Shown in pieces: positions 5,833 through 27,891 of a stretch of 64,000 bases of DNA (position 1 is the first letter of the stretch; each line of letters starts with the position of its first letter). The notes below the pieces were generated by a model. That model saw nothing but the letters and a program-made list of their open reading frames with translations. It was not told where the DNA came from and did not search any database. The translations under genes and the position numbers were made by a program. Location of the stretch: the NCBI GenBank assembly GCA_020073215.1, contig JAIQFO010000003.1, forward strand, positions 62,001 through 126,000, in the 5' to 3' direction. Origin of the DNA: Terriglobia bacterium (GTDB lineage: Bacteria > Acidobacteriota > Terriglobia > Terriglobales > Acidobacteriaceae).

Positions 5833-6323
5833 AGGATTCTCCTCCTCGGGTTAAATAGATGTATATGCATGTAATTGGGTGCAGAAATATCCGAAGGGAA
5901 TGAGATCAGTGTATATACAGACTATGAAACAGCCTGGATTGAACCCTCGAAAAAAAGAATTGTTTCCTCGCCCTGCGCTTGTGCGGATCTTCGCCGCGCC
6001 GCCGGTGTCGTGACCCAGCGATACGATCAAACACTGCAGCCGGCGGCATAAAGACGACGCCAGTTTGCCCGGTTGCAAGCCTAACGCGCGGGAAGCATCT
6101 CGCAGGGTAATTTGAGTGACCTGCTTGGGCTTGACAGCGCGACTCTGACGCGACCCACGCTCGCGGCTCCATGAAAGCAGGGTTCGTTTCATGTCAATGC
6201 GGGCTCCGGTACCCGGTTCGCGGCAAGGGTTGAGTCAAAAAATCGAAATGCTCTATCCGAACGGCGTATGACGAAAGTCATGTTGATTTATATGAACCAA
6301 TATGCAAATATTGCAATATAACG
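5833..6323. other. Divergent intergenic region
   Basis: 491 bases between the divergent MIase-like and ArsR genes. The part next to ArsR is A/T-rich and holds a perfect palindrome (6308-6319). The part near 5860-5925 has several TATA-rich stretches that may carry the minus-strand promoter. A 113-codon minus-strand frame (5851-6192) crosses the middle but has no recognisable domain and no good ribosome-binding site. Confidence 0.6.
6308..6319. promoter_or_regulatory. Palindromic operator candidate for ArsR
   Basis: ATATTGCAATAT is a perfect 12-base palindrome ending four bases before the ArsR start codon. ArsR proteins are usually autorepressors binding A/T-rich inverted repeats over their own promoter. 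No Shine-Dalgarno sequence precedes the ATG at 6324, so the message may be short-leadered or leaderless. Confidence 0.5.
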
Positions 6324-6656
6324 ATGCCTGAGTTATCACAATTCACAGCCGAGTTTTTCAAGGCCTTGGCGCATCCCATGCGGGTCAGAATACTGGACAG
6401 CCTGCGCTCAGGAGAAGTCGGTGTAAACGAGCTCAGCTCCCGCCTGAAAGTTGAACAAAGTACGCTTTCTCAACAACTTGCAGTCCTGCGGAAAAGTAAT
6501 ATCGTAGTTGGCCGCAAGGAAGGCCAGAACGTCTACTACTCAGTGCCGGACCCTGCAATCTTTCGTCTACTCGACGATGCCCGCCAGGTCTTCAACAACC
6601 AGCTCGTAGACATCCGGGACCTCCTTTCTCAACTTAGCCCAGCGGGGGAAAAGTGA
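6324..6656 (+). CDS. ArsR-family winged-helix transcriptional regulator
   Basis: A 110-residue single-domain regulator. FFKALAHPMRVRILDSLRSG is the conserved ArsR helix alpha-3 region, LSSRLKVEQSTLSQQLAVLR is the recognition helix-turn-helix, and GRKEGQNVYYSVPDPAIF is the wing. The usual alpha-3 metal-binding CxC motif is absent (no Cys at all), so it probably senses something other than arsenic or cadmium through thiols. It precedes the hyf-like operon by about 100 bases in the same direction, and faces the MIase-like operon, so it could regulate either or both. The palindrome at 6308-6319 is the likely binding site. Confidence 0.88.
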   Translation: MPELSQFTAEFFKALAHPMRVRILDSLRSGEVGVNELSSRLKVEQSTLSQQLAVLRKSNIVVGRKEGQNVYYSVPDPAIFRLLDDARQVFNNQLVDIRDLLSQLSPAGEK

Positions 6657-6759
6657 GCGGCACATTCAACGCAGGGTCCCACAGCGCGATCGCACCGCGT
6701 TTGGAATTCACCGTTGCCCCATGCCGATTTGGCGGTCGGACGGACGGACAACTATTCCA

Positions 6760-8727
6760 ATGACGCCAGTTGTCTTCAGTTTGTTCCTGGTGGCAATGCT
6801 CTCGGTGCCCGTCGTCACTCTGATCTCCGGCCGGTGGACGAAGGGGCGCGCGCTCCCAGCGGTACTGCTAATGGCATCGTTGGCGATCGGAATGACGGTG
6901 GCAGGGGCGGGGTTCTGGGGCGGACAAAGGTTCACGGTTGAAGTCTCACCCGTGGCATCGTTCTCGTTTGCACTGACCGTGGACCGGCTCAGCGCGTTCT
7001 TTCTGTTACTGATTTGCTCGGTCTCACTGCCCGTCATCCTGTATTCGAGCTCCTACATCCCACGCCACTATTCCTCCGCGCGCCGGGATTGGCTGTGGGT
7101 GCTCTTGCCTCTGTTCCTGATGTCGATGGTTCTGGTCGTAACCGCTTCCACGGTATTCGCATTTCTTTTTGGATGGGAACTGATGACGCTGTTCTCCGCC
7201 GGCCTCATCGTGATTGACGGAGACTCAGAACAGCGGCGCCACAACATTTTTATCTATCTCCTGATGATGCATGCCGGCGCGGCGGCCGTCATCGCTGCGT
7301 TTCTGTTATTCCTGCCGCACGCCGGCAACTTCGCCGAGATGCGGGCGAGCGCAACCCTGATGCCGCCGGCGCTGCGCACGGCCGTGTTCCTGCTCGCGTT
7401 CGTCGGTTTCGGAACGAAGGCCGGAATTATCCCGTTGCATTTATGGCTGCCCCGAGCGCATCCGATTGCGCCCAGTCCGGTGTCGGCCCTGATGTCGGGC
7501 ATCATGCTCAAAACCGCGGTCTATGGATTTGTGCGCTTCGCGTTTGATTTTCTCGGCGGCGGCCCCGGTTGGTGGGGATACCTGGTGCTGTCGGCGGGCT
7601 GTGTGTCAGGCGTGCTGGGCGTGTTGTACGCGATTTCAGAACACGATCTGAAACGTTTGCTCGCTTATCACAGCGTCGAAAACATTGGCATCATTTATCT
7701 CGGCCTCGGGGCAGCGCTCGTGTTTGCGGCTAATCACGCCCCGGCCTGGGCAGCTCTCGCGCTCACCGCGGCCCTGCTTCACTGCCTAAACCACGCAATT
7801 TTCAAAAGCCTTCTGTTTCTTGGAGCCGGCGCAATTTCCGACGCAGCTCACACTCTCGACCTGGAAGAACTCGGCGGCTTGCAGAAGCGAATGCCTCTCA
7901 CCGGCGCCGTGTTCCTGATTGCATGTTGTTCCATCGTGGGTTTGCCGTTGTTCAACGGTTTCGTCAGCGAATGGCTCACCTTCCGCAGTTTTCTGGCGGG
8001 CTCGGAAATGACCAATCTCTCCGCCGCTATCATCTTGCCCTTAGCTGCGGGCGTGCTGGCGTTGATTGGCGGATTGGCCGCCGCGTGTTTCGCCAAGGTG
8101 TACGGGGTCGCCTTCCTGGGGCGTCCGCGGAGTCACGAGGCGGAACACGCCAACGAAATTTCTCAGGCTATGCAGGCCGGCATGCTGGCGCTCGCGATGG
8201 CGTGCGTCGTGATCGGGATTTTCCCCGGACTGGTGGTGCACAGCCTGGGTGCACTTACGGAGGAGTTGCTTCCCGGCGCCACTTTGCCGCCAGTGGCAAC
8301 ATCGCTTTCCAGCGTGCTTCCCTGGATCGCGCTGTTCGTTCTTGTATTGGTCGCTGGTATTGCCGCCTTCAAGCGAGCGAAAAAGTTGACGGCGACCTGG
8401 GCCTGCGGACTTCCGGGCCTGGACGAGCGCATGCAGTACACCTCCACCGCGTTCTCCAAACCGCTGCGACGAGTATTCTCGCAGGTGTACAAGGCGGATC
8501 GAACGCTCGACGTGGTTCCTGCGGACCAGCCCTATTTCCCGGCTTCGATCTCGTACCGCTCGGTCCGCACCACCTCGTTTGAAAAGTATTTGTACCGGCC
8601 CGGCGTGGACGCCATTGTCGCAGCGGCGATCCGTCTGCGGCGTCTTCAGACCGGCAATATTCAGATTTACCTGCTCTATATTTTCGCCGCGCTGATCACC
8701 GTGCTGATGTTGATGAGGTGGGTATGA
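6760..8727 (+). CDS. hyfB: Hydrogenase-4 subunit B-like proton-conducting membrane protein
   Basis: A 655-residue multi-pass membrane protein of the NuoL/M/N-MrpA antiporter superfamily. It has the TM5 glutamate in GWELMTLFSAGLI and the Lys/His channel segment GTKAGIIPLHLWLPRAH followed by PIAPSPVSALMSG. The C-terminal part (KLTATWACGLPGLDERMQYT) matches HyfB/HycC rather than NuoL. Role by family: proton translocation in a group 4 membrane hydrogenase-like complex. Start choice: ATG 6760 begins directly before the first membrane helix; ATG 6721 would add 13 polar residues. Neither has a clear ribosome-binding site. The stop overlaps the next start (ATGA at 8724-8727). First gene of the six-gene complex. 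Confidence 0.88.
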   Translation: MTPVVFSLFLVAMLSVPVVTLISGRWTKGRALPAVLLMASLAIGMTVAGAGFWGGQRFTVEVSPVASFSFALTVDRLSAFFLLLICSVSLPVILYSSSYIPRHYSSARRDWLWVLLPLFLMSMVLVVTASTVFAFLFGWELMTLFSAGLIVIDGDSEQRRHNIFIYLLMMHAGAAAVIAAFLLFLPHAGNFAEMRASATLMPPALRTAVFLLAFVGFGTKAGIIPLHLWLPRAHPIAPSPVSALMSGIMLKTAVYGFVRFAFDFLGGGPGWWGYLVLSAGCVSGVLGVLYAISEHDLKRLLAYHSVENIGIIYLGLGAALVFAANHAPAWAALALTAALLHCLNHAIFKSLLFLGAGAISDAAHTLDLEELGGLQKRMPLTGAVFLIACCSIVGLPLFNGFVSEWLTFRSFLAGSEMTNLSAAIILPLAAGVLALIGGLAAACFAKVYGVAFLGRPRSHEAEHANEISQAMQAGMLALAMACVVIGIFPGLVVHSLGALTEELLPGATLPPVATSLSSVLPWIALFVLVLVAGIAAFKRAKKLTATWACGLPGLDERMQYTSTAFSKPLRRVFSQVYKADRTLDVVPADQPYFPASISYRSVRTTSFEKYLYRPGVDAIVAAAIRLRRLQTGNIQIYLLYIFAALITVLMLMRWV

Positions 8728-9662
8728 CACGGGCGATGAATGTGGTCCAGGTATTGCTGCTTATTTCGCTGGCACCGCTGGTGCGCGGGGTGATTGCACA
8801 ACTGAAAGCCAGAATTCAGAATCGGCGCGGCGCCAGCGTGTGGAGACCGTACGTCGATCTGTTCAAGCTCCTTCGCAAAGAGGATCTCGTTCCACCTTCG
8901 GCTTCCTTCGTTTTTCGTCTCGCCCCCATCGTCCTGTTTGTTACCACCGTGGTGGTCGCGGCGTTTGTTCCGCTGCTACAGGGCTCGGCGCTGCTGGGAG
9001 TGCGCGGCGATTTCATCCTTCTGGTTTACCTGCTGGCGCTGGGGCGATTTTTCCTGATGCTGGGAGCGATGGATGGCGGCAGTTCCTTCGGAGGCATGGG
9101 GGCCAGCCGCGAAGCCCTGGTTTCGACTTTGGCGGAAGCTCCATTCTTGCTGGGGTTGATGGCAGTGGCCATCGCGGCACGCAGCGGAAGCATCGCGGGA
9201 ATGGTGGAGTGGACCATGGGGCAGAGCTTCTTTCAGTTTTCGGCGGTTCACGCCTTGGCGTTTGTGGCCTTGGCCCTGGTGGCTATCGCAGAGACGGGAC
9301 GCATCCCGGTGGACAATCCCACCACGCATCTGGAACTGACCATGATTCACGAGGCGATGGTGCTGGAGTACTCGGGACCGAGCCTGGCTCTGATTGAATG
9401 GGCAAGCTCCATCAAGCTCACCGTGGTCATGGCCCTGCTGATCGCACTGTTTGTCCCTTGGGGAATCGCGAGCAGCCTTTCCGTGCTGGCCCTCGGCATC
9501 GCAGCGCTGGTGCTGTTGTTGAAAATCGCCGTACTTGTGCTGGCGCTCGCGTTGGTGGAAAGCAGTGTGGCGAAGTTGCGCATGTACCTGGTTCCCGATT
9601 TTCTGGGCGTGGCGTCGGCGCTGGCAATCCTGGCTGTGGTTTTTACGGCGCTGATGAGGTGA
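8724..9662 (+). CDS. hyfC: Hydrogenase-4 subunit C-like protein (NuoH family)
   Basis: A 312-residue membrane protein of the NuoH/HycD family, which forms the quinone-chamber or connector subunit between the peripheral arm and the antiporter-like subunits. RRGASVWRPYVDLFKLLRKE is the conserved cytoplasmic loop and AETGRIPVDNPTTHLELTMI is the family signature with the acidic residues facing the E-channel. About eight transmembrane helices can be drawn. The ATG at 8724 overlaps the hyfB stop, so translation is coupled; a GTG two codons earlier is possible. It anchors the HyfG/HyfI-like peripheral subunits to the membrane. Confidence 0.88.
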   Translation: MTRAMNVVQVLLLISLAPLVRGVIAQLKARIQNRRGASVWRPYVDLFKLLRKEDLVPPSASFVFRLAPIVLFVTTVVVAAFVPLLQGSALLGVRGDFILLVYLLALGRFFLMLGAMDGGSSFGGMGASREALVSTLAEAPFLLGLMAVAIAARSGSIAGMVEWTMGQSFFQFSAVHALAFVALALVAIAETGRIPVDNPTTHLELTMIHEAMVLEYSGPSLALIEWASSIKLTVVMALLIALFVPWGIASSLSVLALGIAALVLLLKIAVLVLALALVESSVAKLRMYLVPDFLGVASALAILAVVFTALMR

Positions 9663-9682
9663 GATGGGATTAGAGGTGAACG

Positions 9683-10345
9683 ATGGGATTATTTGAGACG
9701 GCGGCGGCCAAAGCTCTGGCGTCGTCCGGGGTGTTCTTGTTTATGACGGTGCTGCTGATCGCGGCCGCCAAGCGGATTTCCACCTGCATCGGTCTGTACA
9801 GCGTGCAATCGCTGATCATCACCGCACAGATCGTCGCCGTCTCGCGCATGCACCATTCGACGGCAGGCTTCTTCGTTGCCGGCATGGTGTTGGGGGTCAA
9901 GGTGATCGCGATTCCGTACCTGCTGTACCGCATCGTCGAAGATTTGCAGGCACCGCGCGACGTCTCCTCCTCAACCTCGTCTTCCCAATCCGTGTTCATT
10001 GCCGCTGGACTCATTCTGCTTTCTTTCTTTGCGGTGCGGCCCTATGTCGGGGCCCTGGGTGGCGACCAAGCCATGCTCGCCGCCGCAGTCGCACTCGTGT
10101 TAACCGGCGGTTTTCTGATGGTGAGCCGCAAGAAGGCATTGATGCAGGTGGTCGGCCTGCTGGTGTTGGATAACGGCATCTTCCTCGCCGCTCTGACCAC
10201 CACCTTCGGCATGCCGCTGGTCATCGAGATCGGAATTGTGTTCGACCTGCTGATGGGAGTCTTCCTGATGGGACTGTTTGTCTTTCGTATTCGCGACACC
10301 TTCGACCACTTGGACGTTTCCAAGCTGCGGAAGTTGCGAGGCTGA
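9683..10345 (+). CDS. hyfE: Hydrogenase-4 subunit E-like membrane protein
   Basis: 220 residues, very hydrophobic, with six to seven predicted helices. The pattern ISTCIGLYSVQSLIITAQIV and ALMQVVGLLVLDNGIFLAAL resembles HyfE, a distant relative of NuoK/MrpC, and LDNGIFL is typical of it. A GAGGTG ribosome-binding site lies about 7 bases before the ATG. It sits between hyfC and hyfF as in other hyf operons; hyfA, hyfD and hyfH are not present as separate genes. Probable role: a small ion-conducting subunit of the membrane arm. Confidence 0.85.
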   Translation: MGLFETAAAKALASSGVFLFMTVLLIAAAKRISTCIGLYSVQSLIITAQIVAVSRMHHSTAGFFVAGMVLGVKVIAIPYLLYRIVEDLQAPRDVSSSTSSSQSVFIAAGLILLSFFAVRPYVGALGGDQAMLAAAVALVLTGGFLMVSRKKALMQVVGLLVLDNGIFLAALTTTFGMPLVIEIGIVFDLLMGVFLMGLFVFRIRDTFDHLDVSKLRKLRG

Positions 10346-10348
10346 TGC

Positions 10349-11824
10349 ATGGTTTTGCTTCTTCCATTGTTTATACCGCTGGCCGGCGCGCTCTTTGTGT
10401 TCCTGTGCCGGCAACCGCGCGTGGTGGTGCGCGCCGCCCTCACCGCCGGAGCGTTGCAACTGGCCGCGATCGGGCTTACGGTGTACAAGATTCATTCCCA
10501 GGGCGTTCTGACCGCGGGACGCTATCTGCGCGCCGACGGCCTCACCTCGTTCTTCCTCATCAGTCTTGGACTCATCTCCGCGCTCGTGCTCGTCTATTCC
10601 TCGGGATACCTGCGGCATGTTCCGGAAGGAAGATTCTCTTCTCTGCGCTGGTTTTATGGGCTGGTGTTCTTGTTCCTGTTCACCATGGTCGCGGTGTACC
10701 TGTCGGCCAATCTCGGAATGATGTGGATTTTTGTTGAAGCCACCACTCTGGCGTCTGCCTTGCTGGTGGGCTTCTACAACACGGAAGGCGCGGTCGAGGC
10801 CGGCTGGAAATACTTGATCGTCTGCACCGTGGGCATCGCCTTCGCACTGTTCGGTACCATCGCCCTCTATTTGGCGGCGGTGAAGGGCGGAGTCAGCCCC
10901 GAGTCCGCGCTCGATTGGGGAACGCTGATGGCCGCCGCTCCGGGTCTGGTGGGCGGGCGCGAACTGCTGAAACTGGCGTTTGTCTTTGTCGCGGTTGGAT
11001 ATGGGACCAAGGTGGGCTTTGTGCCCATGCATAGCTGGCTGCCCGATGCCCACGCCGAGGCCCCCTCACCCATCAGCGCGCTATTGTCCGCGGTCCTGCT
11101 GAATTGCGCGATGTACGCGCTGCTGCGTTTTGACGCGATCACCTCGCGAGCCATCGGCAGCGGATTCAGTCATACCCTGCTGCTGATCTTTGGCGGAGCT
11201 TCGCTCGCCGTGGCAAGCTTGCTGATGATTGTGCAGCGCGATCTGAAACGCCTGCTCGCCTACAGCAGCATTGAGCACATGGGCATCGTCGCCATCGGCG
11301 TTGGTCTGGGCGGTGCACTCGGACTCTTCGGCGCTTTGCTGCACACCTTCAATCACTCGATCGCGAAGACATTTCTGTTCTTCACCGCGGGCAATGTTCG
11401 GGAAAACTTCGGCACCCTTCGCATGGAGCGGATCCGCGGGATGGCACGTTCCCTGCCCTGGACCGGCAGCGCTCTCATTCTGGGCGCCCTCGCCATCACC
11501 GGGATGCCGCCCTTTGGATTGTTTGTCAGCGAGCTGTTGATACTCACAGGGGCCTTTTCGACAGCACACTATTTCATTGCCGTGCTGATGCTGGCGGCGA
11601 TTTCCGTGGTCTTTGGTGCACTGCTCCACCACTTTCAGCACATGCTCGTGGGCCAACCGGAAGATGTTCCCGTGCCGCAGCCGGCGTTGCAGGCTTCCTG
11701 GTTCGTCGTGATGGGCGTCTGCGCCTTGTGCCTGCTGGTGTTGGGCATCCATGTCCCGGCGGCCTTTGCGGCAGTTTTGCATGGTGCGATGGCGGTATTG
11801 CAACCGGCGGTATTGCAACCATGA
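10349..11824 (+). CDS. hyfF: Hydrogenase-4 subunit F-like antiporter-type protein
   Basis: 491 residues of the NuoL/M/N superfamily. MMWIFVEATTLASALLVGFY holds the TM5 glutamate, and GTKVGFVPMHSWLPDAHAEA with PSPISALLSA holds the channel lysine and the broken helix; LLAYSSIEHMGIV is a further family signature. This is the second ion-translocating antiporter-like subunit of the complex. It starts four bases after the hyfE stop and its own stop overlaps the hyfG-like start (ATGA at 11821-11824), so it lies inside one operon. Confidence 0.88.
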   Translation: MVLLLPLFIPLAGALFVFLCRQPRVVVRAALTAGALQLAAIGLTVYKIHSQGVLTAGRYLRADGLTSFFLISLGLISALVLVYSSGYLRHVPEGRFSSLRWFYGLVFLFLFTMVAVYLSANLGMMWIFVEATTLASALLVGFYNTEGAVEAGWKYLIVCTVGIAFALFGTIALYLAAVKGGVSPESALDWGTLMAAAPGLVGGRELLKLAFVFVAVGYGTKVGFVPMHSWLPDAHAEAPSPISALLSAVLLNCAMYALLRFDAITSRAIGSGFSHTLLLIFGGASLAVASLLMIVQRDLKRLLAYSSIEHMGIVAIGVGLGGALGLFGALLHTFNHSIAKTFLFFTAGNVRENFGTLRMERIRGMARSLPWTGSALILGALAITGMPPFGLFVSELLILTGAFSTAHYFIAVLMLAAISVVFGALLHHFQHMLVGQPEDVPVPQPALQASWFVVMGVCALCLLVLGIHVPAAFAAVLHGAMAVLQPAVLQP

Positions 11825-13290
11825 CCGAGATCGTTCCCAATAGAGAAGTGGGCGTGTCACGAGCGCTGGATCTGCTGCGCTCCGAGAACACGCGTCTGGT
11901 CTCCATCTTTGGCAGCCGCGACGATAACCGCGTGTGCCGCGTTCACTACCTCATCGAAGTGAACGGCCGCGAATACCGCATGTTCAGTTCGCCTGTGACC
12001 GGACCCATTCCCTCGGCAACCGAGATCACGCCCGCGGCCGCCTGGTACGAACGCGAACTCCATGACCAGTACGGCATCGAGTGTGAAGGACACCCTGACC
12101 CGCGTCCTCTGTTGTTTCACGAGAACTGGCCGGACAACGTTCATCCCATGATTGACGATGTTTCGCGTGTCCCTTGGGCCAATCGTCAATACCGCTTCCT
12201 CAAGGTGCAAGGGGACGGGGTTTGCGAAGTGCCGGTCGGTCCCATACATGCCGGCATCATTGAGCCTGGACATTTTCGTTTCAGTGTCGTTGGCGATACA
12301 GTCCTCCATCTGGAATTGCGGCATTTTTATACCCACAAGGCCACGGAGAAGTTGTTCGAGAACACGCCCGTGAGCGATGGCGTGATGATTGCCGAATCGG
12401 TTTCCGGCGACAACTGCTTCTCGCACGCCGTGGCCTATTGCCAGGCCATCGAAAACGCATTGGCGATTTCTGTGCCGCCGCGGGCGCAGGCGATCCGCCT
12501 GATCGGACTCGAACTGGAGCGCATGATGGCCCACATTGCCGACGTCGGGGCGCTCTGCGGCGACGTCGGATTCAGCGTGCCCGCCGCCTACACCGCATGC
12601 ATTAAGGAGAGTCTGCTGCAGGCTTCCACCCGCTTTTTTGGTACGCGGTTCTGGCGCGGCATGGCCGTGCCTGGAGGTGTGACTCGCGACTTCTCCTCGG
12701 CGGACGCGAGTGAGTTCGGGAAGATGGTAACGGCCGCCGCCCGCGATTTTGCGCGCATGGCGCGCCTCATCCTGCACACGTCGTCGGTTCAGAACCGTTT
12801 TGAATCGACCGGAATCCTGACCGCCGAAATTGCCCGCCAACTGGCGGTAGTCGGGCCAGCGGCTCGAGCCAGTGGAATCAGGATGGACGTTCGTCGCGAT
12901 CATCCGAGCGGCCGCTATCGCAACCTCAACGTCGACGTTCCGCAGTACAAATATGGAGATGTACTGGCGCGCGCGCGCATCCGCATCGACGAGACCGCTA
13001 TATCGACGGGTTTGATCCTGGAAACGCTGAAGGATCTTCCGGCGGGATTGGTGCTGGCGCCGGTGCCCGCGGTGGGCAACGCCGAGGCTTTGTCGGCCGT
13101 CGAATCGCCGCGGGGAGAACTGCTTTACTGGGTGCGAATCCGCGACGGCAAAATTGCGCGCTGCCACATCAAGTCGCCTTCGTTTCAGAATTGGCCCGCC
13201 CTGCCCCTGGCCATGCCCGGCAACATCATTGCGGACTTTCCCCTGATCAACAAAAGCTTCAATCTTTCGTACTCAGGATGTGATCGATGA
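11821..13290 (+). CDS. hyfG: Hydrogenase-like large subunit (NuoCD type) without full NiFe cysteine pairs
   Basis: 489 residues: an N-terminal NuoC-like domain (about 1-120, WYERELHDQYGIE with PLLFHE) fused to a NuoD/hydrogenase large-subunit domain. Active group 4 hydrogenases carry a CxxC near the start of the large domain and a second CxxC at the C-terminus; the four cysteines hold the Ni-Fe site. Here the first site reads ESVSGDNCFSHA (only Cys199) and the protein ends NLSYSGCDR (only Cys487). One cysteine of each pair is missing, so a normal Ni-Fe centre is not expected. The surrounding fold motifs (LELERMMAHIADVGALCGDV) are intact. This matches the Ehr class (energy-converting hydrogenase-related complexes). 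The ATG overlaps the hyfF stop. No maturation gene is in the window. Confidence 0.88.
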   Translation: MTEIVPNREVGVSRALDLLRSENTRLVSIFGSRDDNRVCRVHYLIEVNGREYRMFSSPVTGPIPSATEITPAAAWYERELHDQYGIECEGHPDPRPLLFHENWPDNVHPMIDDVSRVPWANRQYRFLKVQGDGVCEVPVGPIHAGIIEPGHFRFSVVGDTVLHLELRHFYTHKATEKLFENTPVSDGVMIAESVSGDNCFSHAVAYCQAIENALAISVPPRAQAIRLIGLELERMMAHIADVGALCGDVGFSVPAAYTACIKESLLQASTRFFGTRFWRGMAVPGGVTRDFSSADASEFGKMVTAAARDFARMARLILHTSSVQNRFESTGILTAEIARQLAVVGPAARASGIRMDVRRDHPSGRYRNLNVDVPQYKYGDVLARARIRIDETAISTGLILETLKDLPAGLVLAPVPAVGNAEALSAVESPRGELLYWVRIRDGKIARCHIKSPSFQNWPALPLAMPGNIIADFPLINKSFNLSYSGCDR

Positions 13291-13300
13291 GGTGGGAAAG

Positions 13301-14140
13301 ATGATCGGCGACGCGGTCGAGCGCAGTCTCAGAAGCGCGCAGGTGCTGATTCCGGTCGGCGAATTAATGTTGAACGCCGCCGGAAGCCGCATGCCGGATG
13401 TTCAGCCGGACCTGCTGACCGGCGAGGTGGCGCGTCGCGTGGTCGCCGCCTGCCCGACTTCGGCACTGAAGATTGACGAGGGCGCCGGGCGCGAGTATCT
13501 AGTTCTCAACTACGGCGATTGCATTGCGTGCTCCCGCTGCATCGCCGCCGGCAGTGGGGCGTTCCGATACGCGGAAAAAGTCGACCGTTGCGGGGTCAGG
13601 AAAGAGGCACTGGTTCGCCGCTGGGACATCCTGAGCCGCACCGAAATTGTTGAAGACGAGCCCGCTTTATCTCAGGCAGCCGAGCAGATTCGCTCGCTGG
13701 TCGGGCGGGCGCTGAACATACGGCAAGTCGATGCCGGATCGTGCAACGGCTGCGAGGCAGAAATCGTTGCCCTTACCAACCCCTACTACGACCTGGAACG
13801 ATTTGGAATTCACTTTGTCGCATCCCCGAAGCACGCGGATATGCTGCTGGTCACCGGGCCTGTAACTCGAAACATGGCGGTAGCGTTGAAGAACGCTCAT
13901 GATGCGGTCCCTTCTCCGAAGCTGGTCGTGGCGGTTGGGGCCTGCGGATGCGGCGGTGGAATCTTCGGCGGCAGCCACGCCGTTGTCGGTGCGGTGGACG
14001 CGGTCATTCCCGTGGATGGATATATCCCGGGATGCCCTCCCACTCCGAAAATGTTGCTGACAGGTATCTTGCAGGTCCTACGCGCTTTCCCAACGCCCTC
14101 GCGAAGACGGAAGCATCGGGGCCGCGCTCGCTCCTTCTAG
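13301..14140 (+). CDS. hyfI: Hydrogenase-like small subunit (NuoB type) with half-ferredoxin domain
   Basis: 279 residues. The N-terminal part (about 40-95) looks like a two-cluster ferredoxin that has lost its first CxxCxxC: ACPTSAL gives Cys51, and CIACSRC gives Cys74, Cys77 and Cys80. In 8Fe ferredoxins these four are exactly the ligands of one cluster, so one 4Fe-4S centre can still form. The C-terminal part is NuoB/hydrogenase small-subunit-like with CNGCE (Cys148, Cys151), GACGCGG (Cys215) and PGCPP (Cys245), enough for the proximal cluster. GAGGTGGG before ATG 13301 favours this start over GTG 13280, which overlaps the hyfG stop. The stop TAG lies in the edge of a dispersed repeat and the tail is unusually basic. 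Confidence 0.85.
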   Translation: MIGDAVERSLRSAQVLIPVGELMLNAAGSRMPDVQPDLLTGEVARRVVAACPTSALKIDEGAGREYLVLNYGDCIACSRCIAAGSGAFRYAEKVDRCGVRKEALVRRWDILSRTEIVEDEPALSQAAEQIRSLVGRALNIRQVDAGSCNGCEAEIVALTNPYYDLERFGIHFVASPKHADMLLVTGPVTRNMAVALKNAHDAVPSPKLVVAVGACGCGGGIFGGSHAVVGAVDAVIPVDGYIPGCPPTPKMLLTGILQVLRAFPTPSRRRKHRGRARSF

Positions 14141-14252
14141 AGCGGTTTCAGAGTTGCTGTGGCCGCGGGCAACTGTCGAGCTGCGCTCGGCTTGGACGGC
14201 CGAGGGCGGCCGTCCCTACGCGAGCGGATACAACAACGGCGAATCCGCTCTA
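14138..14252. repeat. Dispersed palindromic repeat between convergent genes
   Basis: Flanked by the inverted pair TCTAGAGCGG / CCGCTCTAGA. Inside lies a copy of the GCAACTG-CGAGCT-CGCTCGGC element also seen at 37190-37243 and 45553-45606, with a self-complementary GGACGGCC core. The TAG stops of both hyfI (plus) and czcA (minus) lie in the two ends of the element. It may also act as a bidirectional hairpin at the convergent gene ends. Confidence 0.7.
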
Positions 14253-17200
14253 GACCTGCAGCACATCGCCCTCGTGCGCAACCATCTCGTACAACACAGG
14301 ATTGACGAAGAAGCCGATGAAGAGGCGGGAGATGAGGCCGGCAACGATGACGATGGCAAACGGCTTTTGCGTATCCGATCCGATGCCCGTGGAAAGAGCC
14401 GCGGGCAGCAATCCGAGGCAGGCGACCAGAGCTGTCATCATGATCGGACGGAGCCGAAGCAGCGAAGCTTCCCGTGTGGCCTCGTGAATGCTCATCCCTT
14501 CCTGGCGGAGCTTGTTGATGTAGGAAACGAGGATGACGGCTGTCTCCACGGAAACCCCGAGCAGCGCCATAAGGCCAAGGACTGAGGAAACGCTGAAGGG
14601 AGTGTGCGTGAGCTTCAGCGCCACGAGCGCGCCCACCGGTTGGGTCATGATCACGCCCAGGGCAATGGTAGCGGGGAATTTGAAGTTTCCGTAGAGGGCA
14701 AACAAGATCATGAAAATCAGCACCACCGCCAGCGGACCTGTAAAGTACATCTGCGATTTGGCTTCGAGAAACTGGCTGTATTCGCCGCCCCATGACATCG
14801 TATAACCCTGCGGCAGGATGACGGACTTCCTTACCGCCGCTTGGCCGTCTCGCACTGCCCGCTCCAAATCGCGCCCCTCGATGCTGTATTGCACGCCGAT
14901 ATAGCGGGAATTGTTTTCGCGATAAATGAATGACGCACCGTTGCCCTGAGTAATTTTCGCGAGCTGACTGAGGGGAATCTGCTGCCCATCGGGCGTGCCG
15001 ACCAGCAGGTTTCCAATCTCATGCGCGCTGCTGCGGAATTGGGGCTGCATTCGGACCACGAGATCGAACAGTTTCTCTCCCTGAATCACCTGGGTCACCG
15101 CCTGCCCGCCGACGGCGGCCGAAATCACGGCTTCCACGTCGGCAACGTTGATCCCGTAGCGCGCGATCTTGTCTCGATCGACATCGACCAGCAGACTGGG
15201 CTGGCCCAGTTCGCGGACTACGGTAAGTTCGGTGAACCCGCGCACATTGGCCAGCGCGTTCTTGATCTGGATGGCTTTGTCCTGCAGCACGTTCAGGTCT
15301 TCACCATAGATCTTGACCGCCAAAGAGCTCTTGAGGCCGGTAAGGGCCTCGTCCACGGCGTCTTCGGCAGGCTGCGTGTAGTTGAAAATGATTCCGGGAA
15401 AGGCGGTGAGTTTCTTGTTGATCGACTCGACCAGTTGTTTTTTCTCGCTAATATCGCCGGTCCAGGATTTGTCTTTGTAGGGCTTCAAGCCAACGTAGAA
15501 CTCGCAGTTAAAAAAGCCCGTGGCATCGGTGCCATCGTCGGGGCGTCCTAGCTCCGAACCTACGACAGTAACCTGCGGATAAGACATGAGTATGTCGCGT
15601 ATCTGAGGAGCGATGCTGCTAGCTTCCTCGAAAGAAATGGTATAGGGCATGGTGGCGCGTACCCAGAGCGCGCCTTCGTCGAGGTGAGGCATAAACTCGC
15701 CGCCGATGAAGGGCACTAACAGCAGGCTCCCCCCGAAGAGCAGGACCGCGATCGCGAGTGTGGTCTTGGGCCGCTCGAGCGCCCAATCCAGTTGCACCGC
15801 GTATTTGCGCTTCATCCATTCGAAGGCTCGATTCGGTTTCTCGTGCACGCCCTGCTTGAACCAGTAAGAGGCGAGCACGGGTATCAGCGTGAGCGTCAGG
15901 ATGAGCGCGCCGACCAGCGCAAACGACATGGTTTCAGCCATGGGGTGAAACAGTTTTCCAGAGGGGCCGCTCAAACCGTAAATCGGCAGATAACCGGCGA
16001 GGATGACCGCTACGGAATAGAAAATGGGGCGATCCACATCTTTCGCAGCCGCGAGAATGACCTCGTTCAGCTTGTATGGCTGCCCCTCGCGTAGTGCGAG
16101 TTCGCGGTAGATGTTTTCCACCATAACCACGGTGCCGTCAATGACAATTCCGAAGTCGATCGCTCCGATGGAAAGCAGATTCGCGGCAACGTCGTGCGCA
16201 TGGAGCACGATGAAAGCAAACAGAAGCGAGAGTGGAATGGTGATGGCGACGATGATCGCCGCCCGGAAGCTGACCAGGAAGAAAATCAGCACGATCAGGA
16301 CCAACACCATGCCGCGGAGCAGATTCCCTTCCACCGTGTCGGTGGTGAGGCTCACAAGTTCACTGCGGTCGTAAAAGGGATGAATCTTCACGTCAGGCGG
16401 CAGGATCTGGCGGTTCAGTTCTTGCGTTTTCGCGTCAACTGCTTTCAAGACGTTCTGGGTCTGCTCTCCGCGCCGCATCAGAATGACTCCCTCCACTGCA
16501 TCGTCATTCTTCTGGAAGCCGAATTCGCCCAGGCGCGGAGCGTGACCGATCGTCACTTCTCCAATGTCGCGCACACGGATCGGCACACCCTTGTTGGCGC
16601 CAACCACTATGTTTCCAATATCCTCGGTGCTGTGCACCAAGCCGATGCCGCGGACGTAATAGAACTGTCCGCCTTGAGAATAGAATCCGCCGCCGGCATT
16701 CGCGTTATTCGCGGCGAGCGCCGTGATCACTTGCGGGATGGCCAGGTGATATCCGTAGATGCGCGCGGGGTCGAGCAGCACCTGGTATTGCATCACCGTT
16801 CCGCCAAAACCCGAGTCGTCGGCTACGCCCGGCACCGATCGATAGGCCCGCTGTACCACCCAGTCCTCGATCGTCTTTAACTCCTGCGGTGAGCGGTCGG
16901 GACTTTCGAGCACATAGCGATAGACCAGACCACTAGGGCTGAACAGAGGAGCCAGTGTTGGGATGACTCCGGCCGGCAGGGTGGCTTGGGCAAGCCTCTC
17001 AAACACGATTTGCCGCGCAAAATAGCTGTCGGTGCTTTCCTCGAACGTAAGGATCAGATCGGACAAGCCATAGAGCGATTTGGAACGCATCACTACCAAG
17101 CGCGGAACGCCGTTCATCTGGAGTTCAAGAGGAAGGGTGACCAGGCGTTCGACTTCTTCGGCGGCGTGGTCCGGCCACTGGGTGATGATTTCGACCTGCG

Positions 17201-17333
17201 GAGGCGAGAGGTCGGGATAGGCGTCCACCGGCATGCGCTGAAAAGAGATGACGCCGGCGACCGTGATGAATGCGGTCAGCATCAGCACCAGAAATCTTTG
17301 ACGGAGCGCCGCTTGGACGATTCGGTGGATCAT
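14250..17333 (-). CDS. czcA: CzcA/CnrA-type heavy-metal efflux RND pump
   Basis: 1027 residues, the usual length for HME-RND transporters, with two repeats of six transmembrane helices and large periplasmic loops. The TM4 segment IDFGIVIDGTVVMVEN carries the DFGxxxDGxxxxxEN pattern of Zn/Co/Cd/Ni exporters (CzcA, CnrA), not the CusA copper/silver pattern, so divalent cations are the likely substrates. Acts in the inner membrane with the adaptor and outer-membrane channel encoded upstream. The order czcC-czcB-czcA is read on the minus strand; a 210-base gap with a dispersed repeat separates it from czcB. ATG 17333 starts MIHRIVQAALRQRFLVLML, the typical N-terminus; no strong ribosome-binding site precedes it. 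The stop codon is part of the repeat at 14138-14252. Confidence 0.92.
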   Translation of the reverse strand: MIHRIVQAALRQRFLVLMLTAFITVAGVISFQRMPVDAYPDLSPPQVEIITQWPDHAAEEVERLVTLPLELQMNGVPRLVVMRSKSLYGLSDLILTFEESTDSYFARQIVFERLAQATLPAGVIPTLAPLFSPSGLVYRYVLESPDRSPQELKTIEDWVVQRAYRSVPGVADDSGFGGTVMQYQVLLDPARIYGYHLAIPQVITALAANNANAGGGFYSQGGQFYYVRGIGLVHSTEDIGNIVVGANKGVPIRVRDIGEVTIGHAPRLGEFGFQKNDDAVEGVILMRRGEQTQNVLKAVDAKTQELNRQILPPDVKIHPFYDRSELVSLTTDTVEGNLLRGMVLVLIVLIFFLVSFRAAIIVAITIPLSLLFAFIVLHAHDVAANLLSIGAIDFGIVIDGTVVMVENIYRELALREGQPYKLNEVILAAAKDVDRPIFYSVAVILAGYLPIYGLSGPSGKLFHPMAETMSFALVGALILTLTLIPVLASYWFKQGVHEKPNRAFEWMKRKYAVQLDWALERPKTTLAIAVLLFGGSLLLVPFIGGEFMPHLDEGALWVRATMPYTISFEEASSIAPQIRDILMSYPQVTVVGSELGRPDDGTDATGFFNCEFYVGLKPYKDKSWTGDISEKKQLVESINKKLTAFPGIIFNYTQPAEDAVDEALTGLKSSLAVKIYGEDLNVLQDKAIQIKNALANVRGFTELTVVRELGQPSLLVDVDRDKIARYGINVADVEAVISAAVGGQAVTQVIQGEKLFDLVVRMQPQFRSSAHEIGNLLVGTPDGQQIPLSQLAKITQGNGASFIYRENNSRYIGVQYSIEGRDLERAVRDGQAAVRKSVILPQGYTMSWGGEYSQFLEAKSQMYFTGPLAVVLIFMILFALYGNFKFPATIALGVIMTQPVGALVALKLTHTPFSVSSVLGLMALLGVSVETAVILVSYINKLRQEGMSIHEATREASLLRLRPIMMTALVACLGLLPAALSTGIGSDTQKPFAIVIVAGLISRLFIGFFVNPVLYEMVAHEGDVLQV

Positions 17334-17388
17334 TCGGTTTTGGTGGACACGATCCTCTTCGTGCGAAAATTGTTGTAAATCGCTCTTT

Positions 17389-17527
17389 TAGAGCATTTCC
17401 CCTAATGGTGAGAGTGCAGGCCCTCAGCGGCTAAAGCCGGAACCCGTTGCAGCTCAGGGCGGCACGGCTGAAGCCGTGCCCTTCCCTTTCTTGCCCTCCC
17501 TCTAGAGCAAATCGAGAAATGCCCTAG
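17389..17527. repeat. Dispersed hairpin repeat between czcB and czcA
   Basis: Fills most of the czcB-czcA gap. Outer inverted ends TAGAGCATTTC and GAAATGCCCTAGA flank GGCACGGCTGAAGCCGTGCC, a strong hairpin, and a GGCCCTCAGCGGCTAAAGCC unit that recurs near 27820. The lack of coding potential and recurrence elsewhere mark it as a mobile-type intergenic repeat. Confidence 0.65.
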
Positions 17528-17543
17528 AACTTGCGCGCTCCTG

Positions 17544-18710
17544 CTAGCGCTGCAGCGAGTTCGCAAACTGCACGAACAAGCCGCCATTCCCAATCACCTG
17601 ATCGCCGGCTTTCAACCCGCTGGTTATTTCCGTCTGTCCGTTCACGCTTTCTCCGAGCGTAACCGCGCGTCTGCCAAACTGGTTCGAACCTGCGGCCGCA
17701 TAAACAAAAGGCTGGTTCTCGCTATCGCGCAGCACCGCGGCATCCGGAAGCGCAATGGCGTTCGGAATCGTACCCGCGTTTACGGTGGCAACCACGTACA
17801 TATCTTTTTTCAGTTTCTTCCCAGGATTGTTCGTCTCAATCCGTGCCTGCAGCGTACGCGTGTTCGGATCAAGTGAGGCCGCGACGTAGGAAATGCGGCC
17901 GTGGAAGACTTCAGGATAAGTATCCGTCTGAATGGTGACCGCATTTCCGACATGCACGTAGGGCAAGTCTTTCTGGTAGACATTGACCAGCACCCAAACG
18001 CTGCCGGTATCCGAAATCATGAAGCACTGCGTGGTGCCAGGTTGGATCAGCTGCCCGGCAGACACATTCTGCTCGACGACCTCGCCGCTAATCGGCGCTC
18101 TCACCGGAACTTCAAAAGAAGGCGGAGCTTGGACGAGTGCGTCGGGATCCGTAATCCCCATCACTTTCAATGCCGCTTGCGCGGCTGCCAGGTCGCCGTT
18201 CGCCTGGATTTCGGCCGTCTGCGCCTGCTCCAGGTTCTGTTCGGCAATCGCCTTGTGCTCAAACAAGTCATGGGCGCGCGCATATGCCTTTTCTGCCAGA
18301 GCGTAGGCCTCTTTGGCTTTCAGGTAATTGGTGCGGAGTTGCGAATAATCGGGACTCGCCACGTAGAGCATGGGGTCGCCCTTGCTTACCTTCTGACCGG
18401 GGACAACCACCACCCGGTTGACCGGTCCGCTCACCTGCGTGATGACGGGCGTGGTACGAAAACTGTTGTAAGCGACAGACCCCGTCAGCCGCAGGGTTCG
18501 AGGCAGGGTTGTGGGCTGAACCGTCAGCACCTGCACGTGCGCCATCTGTTCCTGGGGGATGGTGAACAATTCCGCATGGTCTGATTTCCTGGCGCCATTG
18601 TAATCAGCGGAGGCTTTCGAGCCTGACTCTCCGCAGTCGGCCCACAGCATGATCGCCGACGCGGCAGCCAGCGCAGCCCACCATCGACAGCGATCCGCGT
18701 GCATCCTCAT
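17544..18710 (-). CDS. czcB: RND efflux periplasmic adaptor subunit (CzcB-like)
   Basis: 388 residues of the membrane fusion protein family. An N-terminal signal or lipoprotein-like segment (WWAALAAASAIMLWADC) is followed by a lipoyl/hairpin region (VVVVPGQKVSKGDPMLYVAS, then the coiled coil AYALAEKAYARAHDLFEHKA) and by the beta-barrel part (DTGSVWVLVNVYQKDLPYV). It links the inner-membrane pump to the outer-membrane channel. There is no extra N-terminal His-rich metal-binding extension as in some CzcB or CusB proteins. Its ATG overlaps the czcC stop by four bases (ATGA on the minus strand), so the two are coupled. Confidence 0.9.
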   Translation of the reverse strand: MRMHADRCRWWAALAAASAIMLWADCGESGSKASADYNGARKSDHAELFTIPQEQMAHVQVLTVQPTTLPRTLRLTGSVAYNSFRTTPVITQVSGPVNRVVVVPGQKVSKGDPMLYVASPDYSQLRTNYLKAKEAYALAEKAYARAHDLFEHKAIAEQNLEQAQTAEIQANGDLAAAQAALKVMGITDPDALVQAPPSFEVPVRAPISGEVVEQNVSAGQLIQPGTTQCFMISDTGSVWVLVNVYQKDLPYVHVGNAVTIQTDTYPEVFHGRISYVAASLDPNTRTLQARIETNNPGKKLKKDMYVVATVNAGTIPNAIALPDAAVLRDSENQPFVYAAAGSNQFGRRAVTLGESVNGQTEITSGLKAGDQVIGNGGLFVQFANSLQR

Positions 18711-19975
18711 GGCAAGTTCCTCGTTCCTTCTGCTTCCTTCAGTTGCTCCAGCGCCGTCATATAAGATGCCAACGCTTGGCGATAGGCCAGTTGCACCAAC
18801 CGGTAGCTGCGCTCAGCATCCAGATAATCCAGAAGGCTGGCGGCGCCACGCTTGTAAGCATACTCACTGATGTCTCGCGAATCCTGCGCCTGCTTGAGGT
18901 AGCCGGAAGTGTAAAGTTGCACCACCTCTTCGTTGGTCCTGACCGCCTCGTAGGCATTGGCCACGTCGGAAAGAACCGCATCGCTGGCGGATTGCCGCTG
19001 CTCCTGTGCCTGGGTCAGGGCATAGCCGGTGCGCGCAATCTCTCCTTGATTGCGATTGAAGATCGGCAGCGCAACATTGGCAAAAAGTGAACCAGTGTAC
19101 TCTGCGGAAACGTGGGTGAAATCAAAGGTGCCGGTGACGTCGACTTTGGCGTTGGCTTTGGCCAACTGGATTTGGCTCTGGGCAGCGGTGATTCCGAGTT
19201 CAGCAGCGCGAAAGTCTGGGCGTTCCTTCAGCGCCCGCGCCTGCAAATCTTCCAGGTTGCCTTTGAGCGGCTGAAACTCCAGTTCACCCACCACGTCGAA
19301 GTCGGCCGGCACCGCGTTGTAACCCAGAAACCCGCGCAGGCCGACCAGCGCCTGCTTTTTCGCAAGGCGGGCAGAAGTGACGTCGGTCTGGAACTGCAGA
19401 AGCTGGAGCTTGATCTTCAGATAATCGCCTTCACCAATGAATCCCGCTTTGAGTTGTGTCTCGCTGATATCGACCGTCTGCTGAAAATCCTTCAGATCCT
19501 CGAGAGCAAACTGGAGAGTCGACTCCGCCAGCAAGACACTGACAAACTGCTGGCCTACATTAAACGCCAGTGTGCGCTCGGCGTCGGCAACCTGGGCGCG
19601 CGTGACGGCCGTCTGATCAAGAGCCGCCTGCAGCCGCCGCTGCCGCTTGTGACCGCGTTCGAAGAGGTATCCGACGCCAATATCGAACTGTTGAACGTTG
19701 TTCAGGTTGTCCCCGGAAAAGTCTTGCGGAGTGAATAATGGGAGGAATTGCGTGTCTACGCCCAACGTCGGGTTGGGGCGCAGGTTGGCGGTGATTTCCT
19801 GAGCTTGATTCTGGAGAATCAGGGTTCGCGTCGCTTGCAGCGAATGGTTGTGAGCCAGCGCCAGATCGATGGCCTGATCAAGAGTGATGCGCGTGGTATT
19901 TTGCCCACTGCCGATCCCCACCAGCAGCAAGAGCATCACCGCCGGTGCTGACACCCGCGAATACCTGGAGAGCAT
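18707..19975 (-). CDS. czcC: TolC-family outer membrane efflux protein (CzcC-like)
   Basis: About 422 residues with a signal peptide (MLSRYSRVSAPAVMLLLLVG) and two outer-membrane-efflux repeats rich in long helices. ITLDQAIDLALAHNHSLQAT is the typical opening of the mature channel protein. It forms the outer-membrane duct of the CzcCBA system. I chose ATG 19975 because it begins a normal signal peptide; a GTG at 20035 would add 20 residues. Neither has a clear ribosome-binding site. First gene of the operon; no metal sensor (CzcRS, MerR) is found next to it. Confidence 0.88.
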   Translation of the reverse strand: MLSRYSRVSAPAVMLLLLVGIGSGQNTTRITLDQAIDLALAHNHSLQATRTLILQNQAQEITANLRPNPTLGVDTQFLPLFTPQDFSGDNLNNVQQFDIGVGYLFERGHKRQRRLQAALDQTAVTRAQVADAERTLAFNVGQQFVSVLLAESTLQFALEDLKDFQQTVDISETQLKAGFIGEGDYLKIKLQLLQFQTDVTSARLAKKQALVGLRGFLGYNAVPADFDVVGELEFQPLKGNLEDLQARALKERPDFRAAELGITAAQSQIQLAKANAKVDVTGTFDFTHVSAEYTGSLFANVALPIFNRNQGEIARTGYALTQAQEQRQSASDAVLSDVANAYEAVRTNEEVVQLYTSGYLKQAQDSRDISEYAYKRGAASLLDYLDAERSYRLVQLAYRQALASYMTALEQLKEAEGTRNLP

Positions 19976-20280
19976 AAGGGTTGAGATCAAAGCGCGCTGA
20001 CTGTGACGCAACAGAACTCGCAGGAATGCTCGCACCTAACGAGCACTACGCAGGCTCCGGCGTCCGTACCGTCGTTCGTACCGTCCTCCTGTGTCTAAGA
20101 CTGCGACTCAGGGCCCAAGGGATGTATTGTAATTCACAGCAATCACGAATTGCGCCGTACATGGGCCGACCAAAGGAAGTACACCGGTATTCCCGGGGGG
20201 CTTCAGGGGCAGTGGATCAACTGCGAGGTCCTGAAACAGGGCCTCCGGGAGATCAATGGCGACCGCTTCGGATAGGACGT

Positions 20281-26796: not shown

Positions 26797-26813
26797 CAGA
26801 GTCTTGATCTCCG

Positions 26814-26886
26814 GTACAGCCCCTAAAGGGGCATTTGATTTCGACGTCTTTATCGGCATCGCTGAAGCGATGCCCTGATACGAACC
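26814..26886. repeat. Dispersed two-hairpin repeat between etfB and etfA
   Basis: Contains GCCCCTAAAGGGGC and GGCATCGCTGAAGCGATGCC, two perfect or near-perfect hairpins, with ATTTGATTTCGA between. Both units recur, in both orientations, at 29812-29973. Confidence 0.75.
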
Positions 26887-26917
26887 TTGCTTGCCCGTGT
26901 GCGTTTGATTCAGTTGT

Positions 26918-27727: not shown

Positions 27728-27763
27728 TCGACTCCTGTCAATTCAGTAATCCACGTTTACAAG

Positions 27764-27883
27764 TGGAGAGGCGGGCGTCCCCGCCCGGCGGGCTCTCCGG
27801 CCCTCAGGGGCTAAAGCCGTGCCCTTCCCAAAACCATTTATGAGATCAGCGTCTACGAGGACGGGCGAGGCGCCCGGCTCTCC
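27764..27883. repeat. Dispersed GC-rich repeat between the ETF-QO gene and etfB
   Basis: Inverted ends GGAGAG / CTCTCC, inner hairpin CGGGCG-TCCC-CGCCCG and a GGCCCTCAGGGGCTAAAGCC unit shared with 17412-17440. Occupies nearly the whole intercistronic gap. Confidence 0.65.
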
Positions 27884-27891
27884 ATTTGCAA

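Follow-up and report, generated by a model that had tools for sequence, protein, structure and literature searches.

Homologues of the group 4 hydrogenases that have no CxxC ligand motifs, and that are accompanied by complex I-like subunits, are known as Ehr (energy-converting hydrogenase-related), with six syntenic genes that include homologues of nuoH, nuoL, HyfE and HyfB having been described in Sulfobacillus (PMC4378227). Ehr-like complexes have also been reported in comammox Nitrospira and ammonia-oxidising archaea (PMC10284858, PMC10432482), Acidithiobacillus ferrooxidans has a hyfBCEFGI cluster with a non-hydrogenase catalytic subunit (PMC7735108), and in Geobacter sulfurreducens the Ehr subunits (GSU0739-45) were more abundant on formate than in hydrogen-containing conditions (PMC7894505). 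The function of Ehr is given as unknown in this literature (PMC10284858, PMC10432482, PMC4378227). A member of the class lies at positions 6324-14140 of a 64,000-nucleotide stretch of contig JAIQFO010000003.1 from a Terriglobia bacterium (Acidobacteriota; assembly GCA_020073215.1), the whole of which is referred to here as the window. We consider it reasonably probable from its sequence that this operon encodes an intact, selected Ehr-type membrane complex of the Hyf type, within the complex I superfamily, that would work as a redox-driven ion pump acting on a substrate other than H2.

The likeness to Ehr is clear on two counts, the large subunit HyfG is a group 4 homologue without CxxC motifs and a complex I-like membrane arm (HyfB, C, E and F-type genes) is encoded in the same operon, the published complexes being compared with the window by description and not by sequence. 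What differs is an NKSF..SG.D signature in HyfG, a one-cluster ferredoxin-like fusion in the Fe-S subunit, and an ArsR gene with an operator-like site, none of which is mentioned in the accessible portions of the published Ehr accounts. Nor is the window's signature described in the open-licence literature on acidobacterial or ArsR-linked Ehr and on Rv0087, as far as the accessible text of these papers extends. The Ehr class itself is already known, and the window locus is a member of it with a sharper signature and a regulatory handle.

Among the closest known relatives are the E. coli hydrogenases 3 and 4 (HycE/HyfG; formate hydrogenlyase, group 4a). The window complex shares with them the fold of the large subunit (Z 43.1), the HyfB/C/E/F-type arm, the hydrogenase-type proximal cluster and the equivalents of HycE E193 and R478, but its HyfG has neither the Ni-Fe ligands nor the C-terminal tail. 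The features of this subunit are as follows.

11821-13290, + strand: HyfG-like large subunit with fused NuoC and NuoD domains, 489 residues from the ATG at 11821, with no Ni-Fe ligand and no C-terminal tail.
12403-12417, + strand: SGDNC, residues 195-199, the former first ligand motif (CGIC-G in HycE).
13273-13287, + strand: SGCDR, residues 485-489, the end of the former second ligand motif, where CYSC-T of HycE faces SYSG-C and the protein stops.

The alignment of HyfG with E. coli HycE (7z0s_E) is gap-free at both sites (HMMER; CGIC-G against SGDN-C, CYSC-T against SYSG-C), and places S195, N198, S483 and G486 at the positions of the ligands C241, C244, C531 and C534. The two cysteines that are present, C199 and C487, face HycE G245 and T535, each one residue beyond the second ligand of its pair. 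Thus the four cysteines in two CxxC motifs that mark a group 4 [NiFe] hydrogenase are all missing from the window HyfG. A sequence-only reading made earlier had located SGDNC and SGCDR correctly, both being found at residues 195-199 and 485-489 when the protein is read from ATG 11821, but had concluded that one cysteine of each Ni-Fe pair was kept. That conclusion has to be given up, because the alignment is gap-free and conservation in the family shows that the leftover cysteines are off the ligand positions; all four ligands are replaced, the register having been misjudged. Retention of one cysteine per pair would have been a likeness to MBS, in which two of the four remain (PMC7684303). Its wider view of the complex, as Ehr-like and unable to hold a normal Ni-Fe centre, is borne out by the alignment and the family alike.

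The family was defined by the string NKSF and comprises 53 non-redundant sequences, window included, from Acidobacteriota, Burkholderiales, Rhizobium and Rhodococcus; L008 (C-terminus masked), L016-L020 (the same as loci L075-L079), L115 (duplicate) and L124 (incomplete) were left out of the counts. A cysteine at any of the four ligand positions is found in 0/53 members, and chance or sequencing error is unlikely as an explanation since the relatives agree. Members with the signature include plasmid records, and are found in Paraburkholderia, Cupriavidus metallidurans, Rhizobium and Rhodococcus. Among 299 genomes of the taxonomic class, 56 have a HyfG match at E <= 1e-50, and 38 of these have the window's signature type. 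HycI cleaves the C-terminal extension of HycE, and beyond the second motif HyfG has a tail of 0 residues in all 53 members, compared with 28-33 residues in 7/9 rows with CxxC motifs; a tail length of 0 is also found in the CxxC rows L070 and L127, and the tail is not universal among hydrogenases.

The former metal site is not simply lost. There are 63 invariant columns among the 53 members, with the lowest measured identity to the window HyfG being about 36-38%, and 15 columns are at least 98% fixed for a residue that none of the nine CxxC hydrogenases in the comparison has at that position. These columns include D197 in the former first motif and N477, K478, F480, L482 and G486 near the second, of which D197, G486, N477, K478 and F480 are found in 53/53 members. 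As the set was picked by NKSF, it is in part built to be fixed at N477, K478 and F480, which does not apply to D197, L482 and G486. Conservation of this kind indicates that the site is rebuilt and held constant rather than abandoned.

The residues C199 and C487 behave quite differently. SGD(N/H)C together with SGCDR is found in 16 further non-redundant sequences, all in the window's clade, and L010 has SGDNC with SGSDR, i.e. C199 with a serine at 487. Overall C199 is found in 18/53 and C487 in 17/53 members, all of this clade, with both in 17, C199 alone in 1 and neither in 35. Columns 199 and 487 are the most variable of their motifs (entropy 1.94 and 2.25 bits), and as they are the highest-entropy columns and are confined to one clade these cysteines are not conserved remnants. 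A second Ehr type, for which the 17 sequences without NKSF were taken, has a cysteine at the 487 position in 10/17 and at the 199 position in 0/17, which speaks against an obligate pair. A re-evolved redox pair of C199 and C487 was considered and set aside as improbable: they do co-occur, but all carriers belong to a single clade and no columns of the motifs vary more.

The same observations bear on whether HyfG could still work as a [NiFe] hydrogenase in which C199, C487 and other residues serve as unusual ligands, which is extremely improbable: the former ligand motifs hold only two cysteines, each one residue out of register, in columns that are the most variable of the motifs, and both cysteines are missing in 35/53 members. 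What could be said for it comes from the maturation genes. Four hyp genes follow one another on contig C57 (L113, 34-4257) of the assembly, namely a hypE-like gene that is truncated at the contig end, hypA, hypB and hypF, and a HypD match is more frequent where a genome has the window's type. These hyp genes can, however, be accounted for by another hydrogenase of the assembly, which has its motifs intact and is accompanied by HycI. It is encoded by a group 4 operon on contig C16 (L073, 5212-18937), with CGIC and CFSC motifs and a 33-residue tail, and the operon also holds genes for the HycI protease, a molybdopterin oxidoreductase and a FAD/NAD-binding subunit. C16 and C57 agree with the window in GC content and tetranucleotide use, a binning error being possible. 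The genome G199 likewise has, next to the window's type, a further match (33% identical) of the kind found on C16.

The assembly amounts to 5.6 Mb in 111 contigs (completeness 97.98%, contamination 5.65% as listed), and HypD was not found in the whole of it, an absence that may be due to an assembly gap, with hypC and hypD beyond the end of C57. The earlier claim that HypA-F, HycI and formate dehydrogenase genes are missing from the window is sustained for HypD (none in the assembly) and for HypF and PF00384 (matches on other contigs only), a window search for HypA, HypB, HypC, HypE and HycI not having been made. In addition, 15/38 genomes with the window's type have no HypD match, among them G147 (100% complete, 8 contigs). 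This suggests to us that the complex may do without Ni-Fe maturation, its association with HypD possibly reflecting kinship or lifestyle.

Whilst the ligands are gone, other residues of the active site are kept. The equivalents of HycE E193 and R478 are E148 and R431 of the window and are found in 53/53 members, the HycE D529 position is Asn in 51/53 and Ser in 2/53. In the HycE structure paper E193 is the proposed proton donor and D529 is called strictly conserved (PMC9474812). A small polar substrate is suggested because the site has a fixed polar set of E148, D197, R431, N477 and K478. Without the ligands, H2 itself is a very unlikely substrate.

A quinone might also be considered for the vacated cavity. 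If the complex were a ferredoxin- (or formate-) to-quinone oxidoreductase, acting as a short complex I with a novel mode of menaquinone binding, then the two antiporter-like subunits and the NuoH-type subunit would be expected, after HycE the other 49 of the 50 structure matches listed for the HyfG model would be the complex I subunits that they are, and a quinone end has been proposed for other Ehr (PMC6349859). In the alignment with Nqo4, T37-H38-G39 faces I146-I147-E148 and M85-D86-Y87 faces V194-S195-G196, such that H38 and Y87, which are named as the quinone-headgroup residues (PMC7684303), face I147 and G196. This His and Tyr of complex I are thus both absent, and in the small subunit the cysteines are spaced as CxxC, as in hydrogenases, where complex I has an adjacent pair. 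Formate as the donor is further disfavoured in that FdhA is not clearly commoner with the window's type (over the cut-off in 11/38 against 58/261 others, p 0.41), only matches over the cut-off being counted as at E <= 0.001 FdhA matched all 299 genomes; the count took 69 genomes, where the tally gives 70. Formate dehydrogenase was likewise rejected as an obligate partner by these counts. Quinone reduction deserves some weight but is unlikely. With the Ni-Fe ligands and both quinone-headgroup residues absent, H2 is probably not the substrate, and nor is a quinone bound in the manner of complex I.

The Fe-S subunit of the operon is the following.

13280-14140, + strand: NuoB/HycG-like Fe-S subunit with an N-terminal one-cluster ferredoxin-like domain (PF01058 E 3e-31); likely start ATG 13301, close to the starts of relatives.

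Its proximal-cluster cysteines C155, C158, C222 and C252 are invariant in 15/15 aligned sequences of the window's clade, window included, in line with the earlier statement that this subunit keeps its key residues. The spacing is the CxxC of hydrogenases (GSCNGC). The ferredoxin-type cysteines C58 (CPT), C81, C84 and C87 are invariant in the same 15/15 and, going by the usual ferredoxin pattern, would bind one [4Fe-4S] cluster, the other cluster of the domain having apparently been lost. Distant members with the same large-subunit signature (e.g. L096, L099, L118, L120) have the short NuoB-like form only.

Variation in the proximal cluster is seen further afield. The Fe-S subunit at 10306-11100 of L119, from a Mycobacterium branderi plasmid, has no cysteine at the four proximal-cluster positions (GSNGSDE, VGTDA, VPGAP), so that here the proximal cluster may have gone along with the Ni-Fe site. 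In the second Ehr type the PGC of the small subunit is changed to PG[DSAF] in nine loci (L062, L064, L067, L068, L105-L109), leaving three proximal-cluster cysteines, which is the number reported for MBS, and is kept as PGC in L063, L065, L104 and L122.

MBS, the sulfane sulfur reductase of Pyrococcus, keeps one cysteine of each ligand pair (C85, C385), and has a three-cysteine proximal cluster and a Mrp-type membrane arm (PMC7684303). As a solved Ni-Fe-less relative in the same superfamily that has a known reaction and also lacks the quinone residues (PMC7684303), it offers a model for the window complex, with a sulfane-sulfur or polysulfide reductase working in the same manner. The window complex departs from this model in having 0/4 of the ligand cysteines where MBS keeps 2/4 (PMC7684303), and in having four proximal cysteines with CxxC spacing where the MBS motif is three residues shorter and has three. 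Furthermore, HyfG matches MbsL (E 1e-22) more weakly than HycE (E 8e-72), and the regulator beside the operon has no cysteine, hence would be no thiol-based sulfide sensor. Chains of MBS and MBH do not occur in the 50 structure matches listed for the HyfG model, which is no evidence against kinship. Since the hallmark three-cysteine cluster is absent, the MBS reaction is unlikely, and we regard this alternative as improbable.

The gene set of the operon is intact. Profile searches of the window proteins identified a tight + strand operon of ArsR regulator, HyfB, HyfC, HyfE, HyfF, HyfG and NuoB-like Fe-S subunit, with a 4-base overlap of hyfF and hyfG and a probable overlap of hyfB and hyfC. 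None of the hydrogenase-4 models reached its curated cut-off on the operon proteins, and no HyfD-, HyfH-, HycI- or FdhF-like gene was found by these searches among the seven genes. The membrane arm is made up of four subunits.

6721-8727, + strand: HyfB-like antiporter-like membrane subunit of NuoL type (hydrogenase 4 subunit B model 634 bits, cut-off 667); E153, H240, K362 and others conserved.
8724-9662, + strand: HyfC/HycD-like subunit of NuoH type (PF00146 E 1e-41); start inferred from the ATGA overlap with hyfB (GTG 8718 in the open reading frame list).
9683-10345, + strand: HyfE-like small membrane subunit (NF008556 hydrogenase 4 membrane subunit E 3e-26, below cut-off; no Pfam match).
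10349-11824, + strand: HyfF-like second antiporter-like subunit (hydrogenase 4 subunit F model 467 bits, cut-off 610); E130, H228 and K340 conserved.

HyfB and HyfF have nine charged or histidine columns in common with each other and with their E. coli and Rhizobium counterparts, and HyfC has 20 charged columns in common with E. coli HycD/HyfC and a Rhizobium HyfC, in keeping with the earlier view that the ion-translocating subunits retain their key residues. The operon is also not decaying: the ratio of non-synonymous to synonymous substitution (dN/dS) is 0.05-0.20 over the 33 values obtained when the seven genes were compared with their orthologues in L007-L011 and L074, which indicates that the genes are under purifying selection. 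The highest value, 0.20, is that of HyfB against L074; HyfB against L009 (0.39) and L010 (0.42) were left out as hyfB lies past the contig ends there and its paralogue HyfF was matched instead, and for one ArsR comparison no value could be computed.

The complex might also be a regulated ion channel or antiporter, with a peripheral arm that senses redox state or binds a ligand without turnover. In its favour, no gene outside the operon was common to at least four of the 19 compared loci of the window's clade, several of which have short flanks, and the operon of the M. branderi plasmid persists with a Fe-S subunit devoid of proximal-cluster cysteines. Turnover is better fitted by both cluster ligand sets being invariant in 15/15 sequences of the window's clade and by the proton-donor Glu being kept in 53/53, and a channel seems improbable. 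The comparison of the 19 loci also agrees with the earlier reading, in which the donor was unidentified, as no donor gene is conserved beside the operon.

The relationship of these sequences was examined with a maximum-likelihood tree of 81 rows, from which the same rows as before plus L100 were left out. The 69 Ni-Fe-less rows are set apart from the nine CxxC hydrogenases and the three NuoD by a branch of 100/100 support, and consist of 52 rows with the window's signature (support 96/79) and 17 of the second type, these group labels being taken from motifs. The tree is unrooted and does not date the ligand loss, and its rows are the family, hydrogenases and NuoD, with no published Ehr reference among them.

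Pumping driven by another reaction is the most likely function, because all four Ni-Fe cysteines are gone while the gene set is intact. The complex may be pictured as a peripheral arm with two [4Fe-4S] clusters and the HyfG cavity, and a pumping membrane arm beneath. Electrons from a soluble low-potential donor would enter at the one [4Fe-4S] cluster of the N-terminal, ferredoxin-like domain of the Fe-S subunit, from where they would move to the hydrogenase-type proximal cluster and then to a substrate bound in the vacated HyfG cavity. The substrate could be small and polar and be protonated as it is reduced, with E148 as the proton donor, and the reaction would drive ion pumping via HyfC, HyfE, HyfF and HyfB.

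Several points weigh against such a pump. The donor, acceptor and activity of the complex are all inferred from sequence, and the absence of H38 and Y87 leaves quinone binding of another kind possible. A HypD match is more frequent with the window's type than without it (23/38 against 90/261 genomes, Fisher p 0.004, kinship uncorrected); this would agree with a connection to Ni-Fe maturation, but may be an effect of kinship. The tree program also gave a warning that long branches meet. Finally, the AlphaFold model of HyfG (mean pLDDT confidence 76; best solved-structure match HycE 7z0s_E) is poorest at the site, with pLDDT <50 at residues 122-150 and 482-489, and as it is low at both ligand loops the site contacts were drawn from homology and no distances were taken from the model.

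A further feature that sets the locus apart is the regulator at its head.

6300-6319, no strand assigned: operator-like near-palindrome ATATGCAAATATTGCAATAT, which ends four bases before the regulator start codon.
6324-6656, + strand: ArsR-family regulator, Rv0081-like, 110 residues, no cysteine (PF01022 E 3e-11; best solved-structure match 6jmi, Rv0081 of M. tuberculosis, E 2e-18).

An ArsR homologue is found within 1.2 kb of the operon in 26/53 related loci, in some on the other side or strand, and many of the 27 loci without one end close to the operon. Of the other 18 loci in the window's clade, 13 have an ArsR homologue; L009, L010 and L076 are truncated short of hyfB, and in L078 and L079 no ArsR lies within 1.2 kb. 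The site ATATGCAAATATTGCAATAT matches the palindrome ATATGCAAATATTTGCATAT at 17/20 positions, the best of 63981 + strand window positions, and is the only such site at <=3 mismatches in the 5.6 Mb assembly. Of 17 upstream regions scanned, the window's among them, 11 have a site with at least 15/20 matches; as the consensus comes from these same regions, it is a lead and no test of binding. In seven other genomes the site lies by the operon in G086 only, the matches in G143 and G147 are elsewhere and four have none, so that the site is not uniform across genomes. The ArsR gene and palindrome suggest a local, self-controlled switch, in which the ArsR protein would control expression at the palindrome before its own gene. 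A promoter scan found no match upstream of the operon, and terminator counts were near chance.

The regulator also points to the mycobacteria. In M. tuberculosis rv0081 regulates rv0082-rv0087, which comprise an oxidoreductase, rv0083, hycD, hycP, hycQ and hycE (PMC6901956), and the complex has been called a putative [NiFe]-hydrogenase or formate hydrogenlyase. The likeness to the window is that of a Rv0081-like regulator beside the same six-gene set, all but the regulator being compared by published gene names, the difference is that the Fe-S gene is last in the window and second in the mycobacterial order. In the acidobacteria the genes run ArsR, FeS, B, C, E, F, G at the two loci L096 and L099, an order which by the subunit names we take to be that of rv0081-rv0087.

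It is a tentative proposal, on which we would not yet lean, that the former Ni-Fe site has become a new catalytic site (marked by D197, N477 and K478 and still having E148 and R431) in a widespread family of pumps found in Acidobacteriota, Burkholderiales, Rhizobium and Rhodococcus that shares one undescribed energy-conserving reaction, and that by regulator and gene set the family may include mycobacterial rv0082-rv0087, now annotated as formate hydrogenlyase. The fixed replacement residues of HyfG are in any case a handle on Ehr function and targets for mutation, and the regulator with its candidate operator is another, as its inducer should point to the substrate. Homologues occur in culturable soil bacteria, and the laboratory strains Cupriavidus metallidurans CH34 (L118) and Paraburkholderia phymatum (L116) each have one. 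It is also apparent that the ligands should be checked wherever an operon is annotated as hydrogenase 4 or formate hydrogenlyase, and that cysteines left near a former Ni-Fe site need not be remnants.

Some other genes may be mentioned. A further hydrogenase large-subunit-like frame at 93939-95078 of contig C4 (G000; L129, L131) has a PF00374 match at both ends. Directly 3' of the operon and on the opposite strand there are putative genes of a CusA/CusB/TolC-type efflux system at 14250-20035, and at 25723-29772 there are EtfA/EtfB-like and ETF-quinone oxidoreductase-like genes with a ferredoxin-like end, both groups being named by reading translations alone, the latter a possible electron-transfer neighbour.

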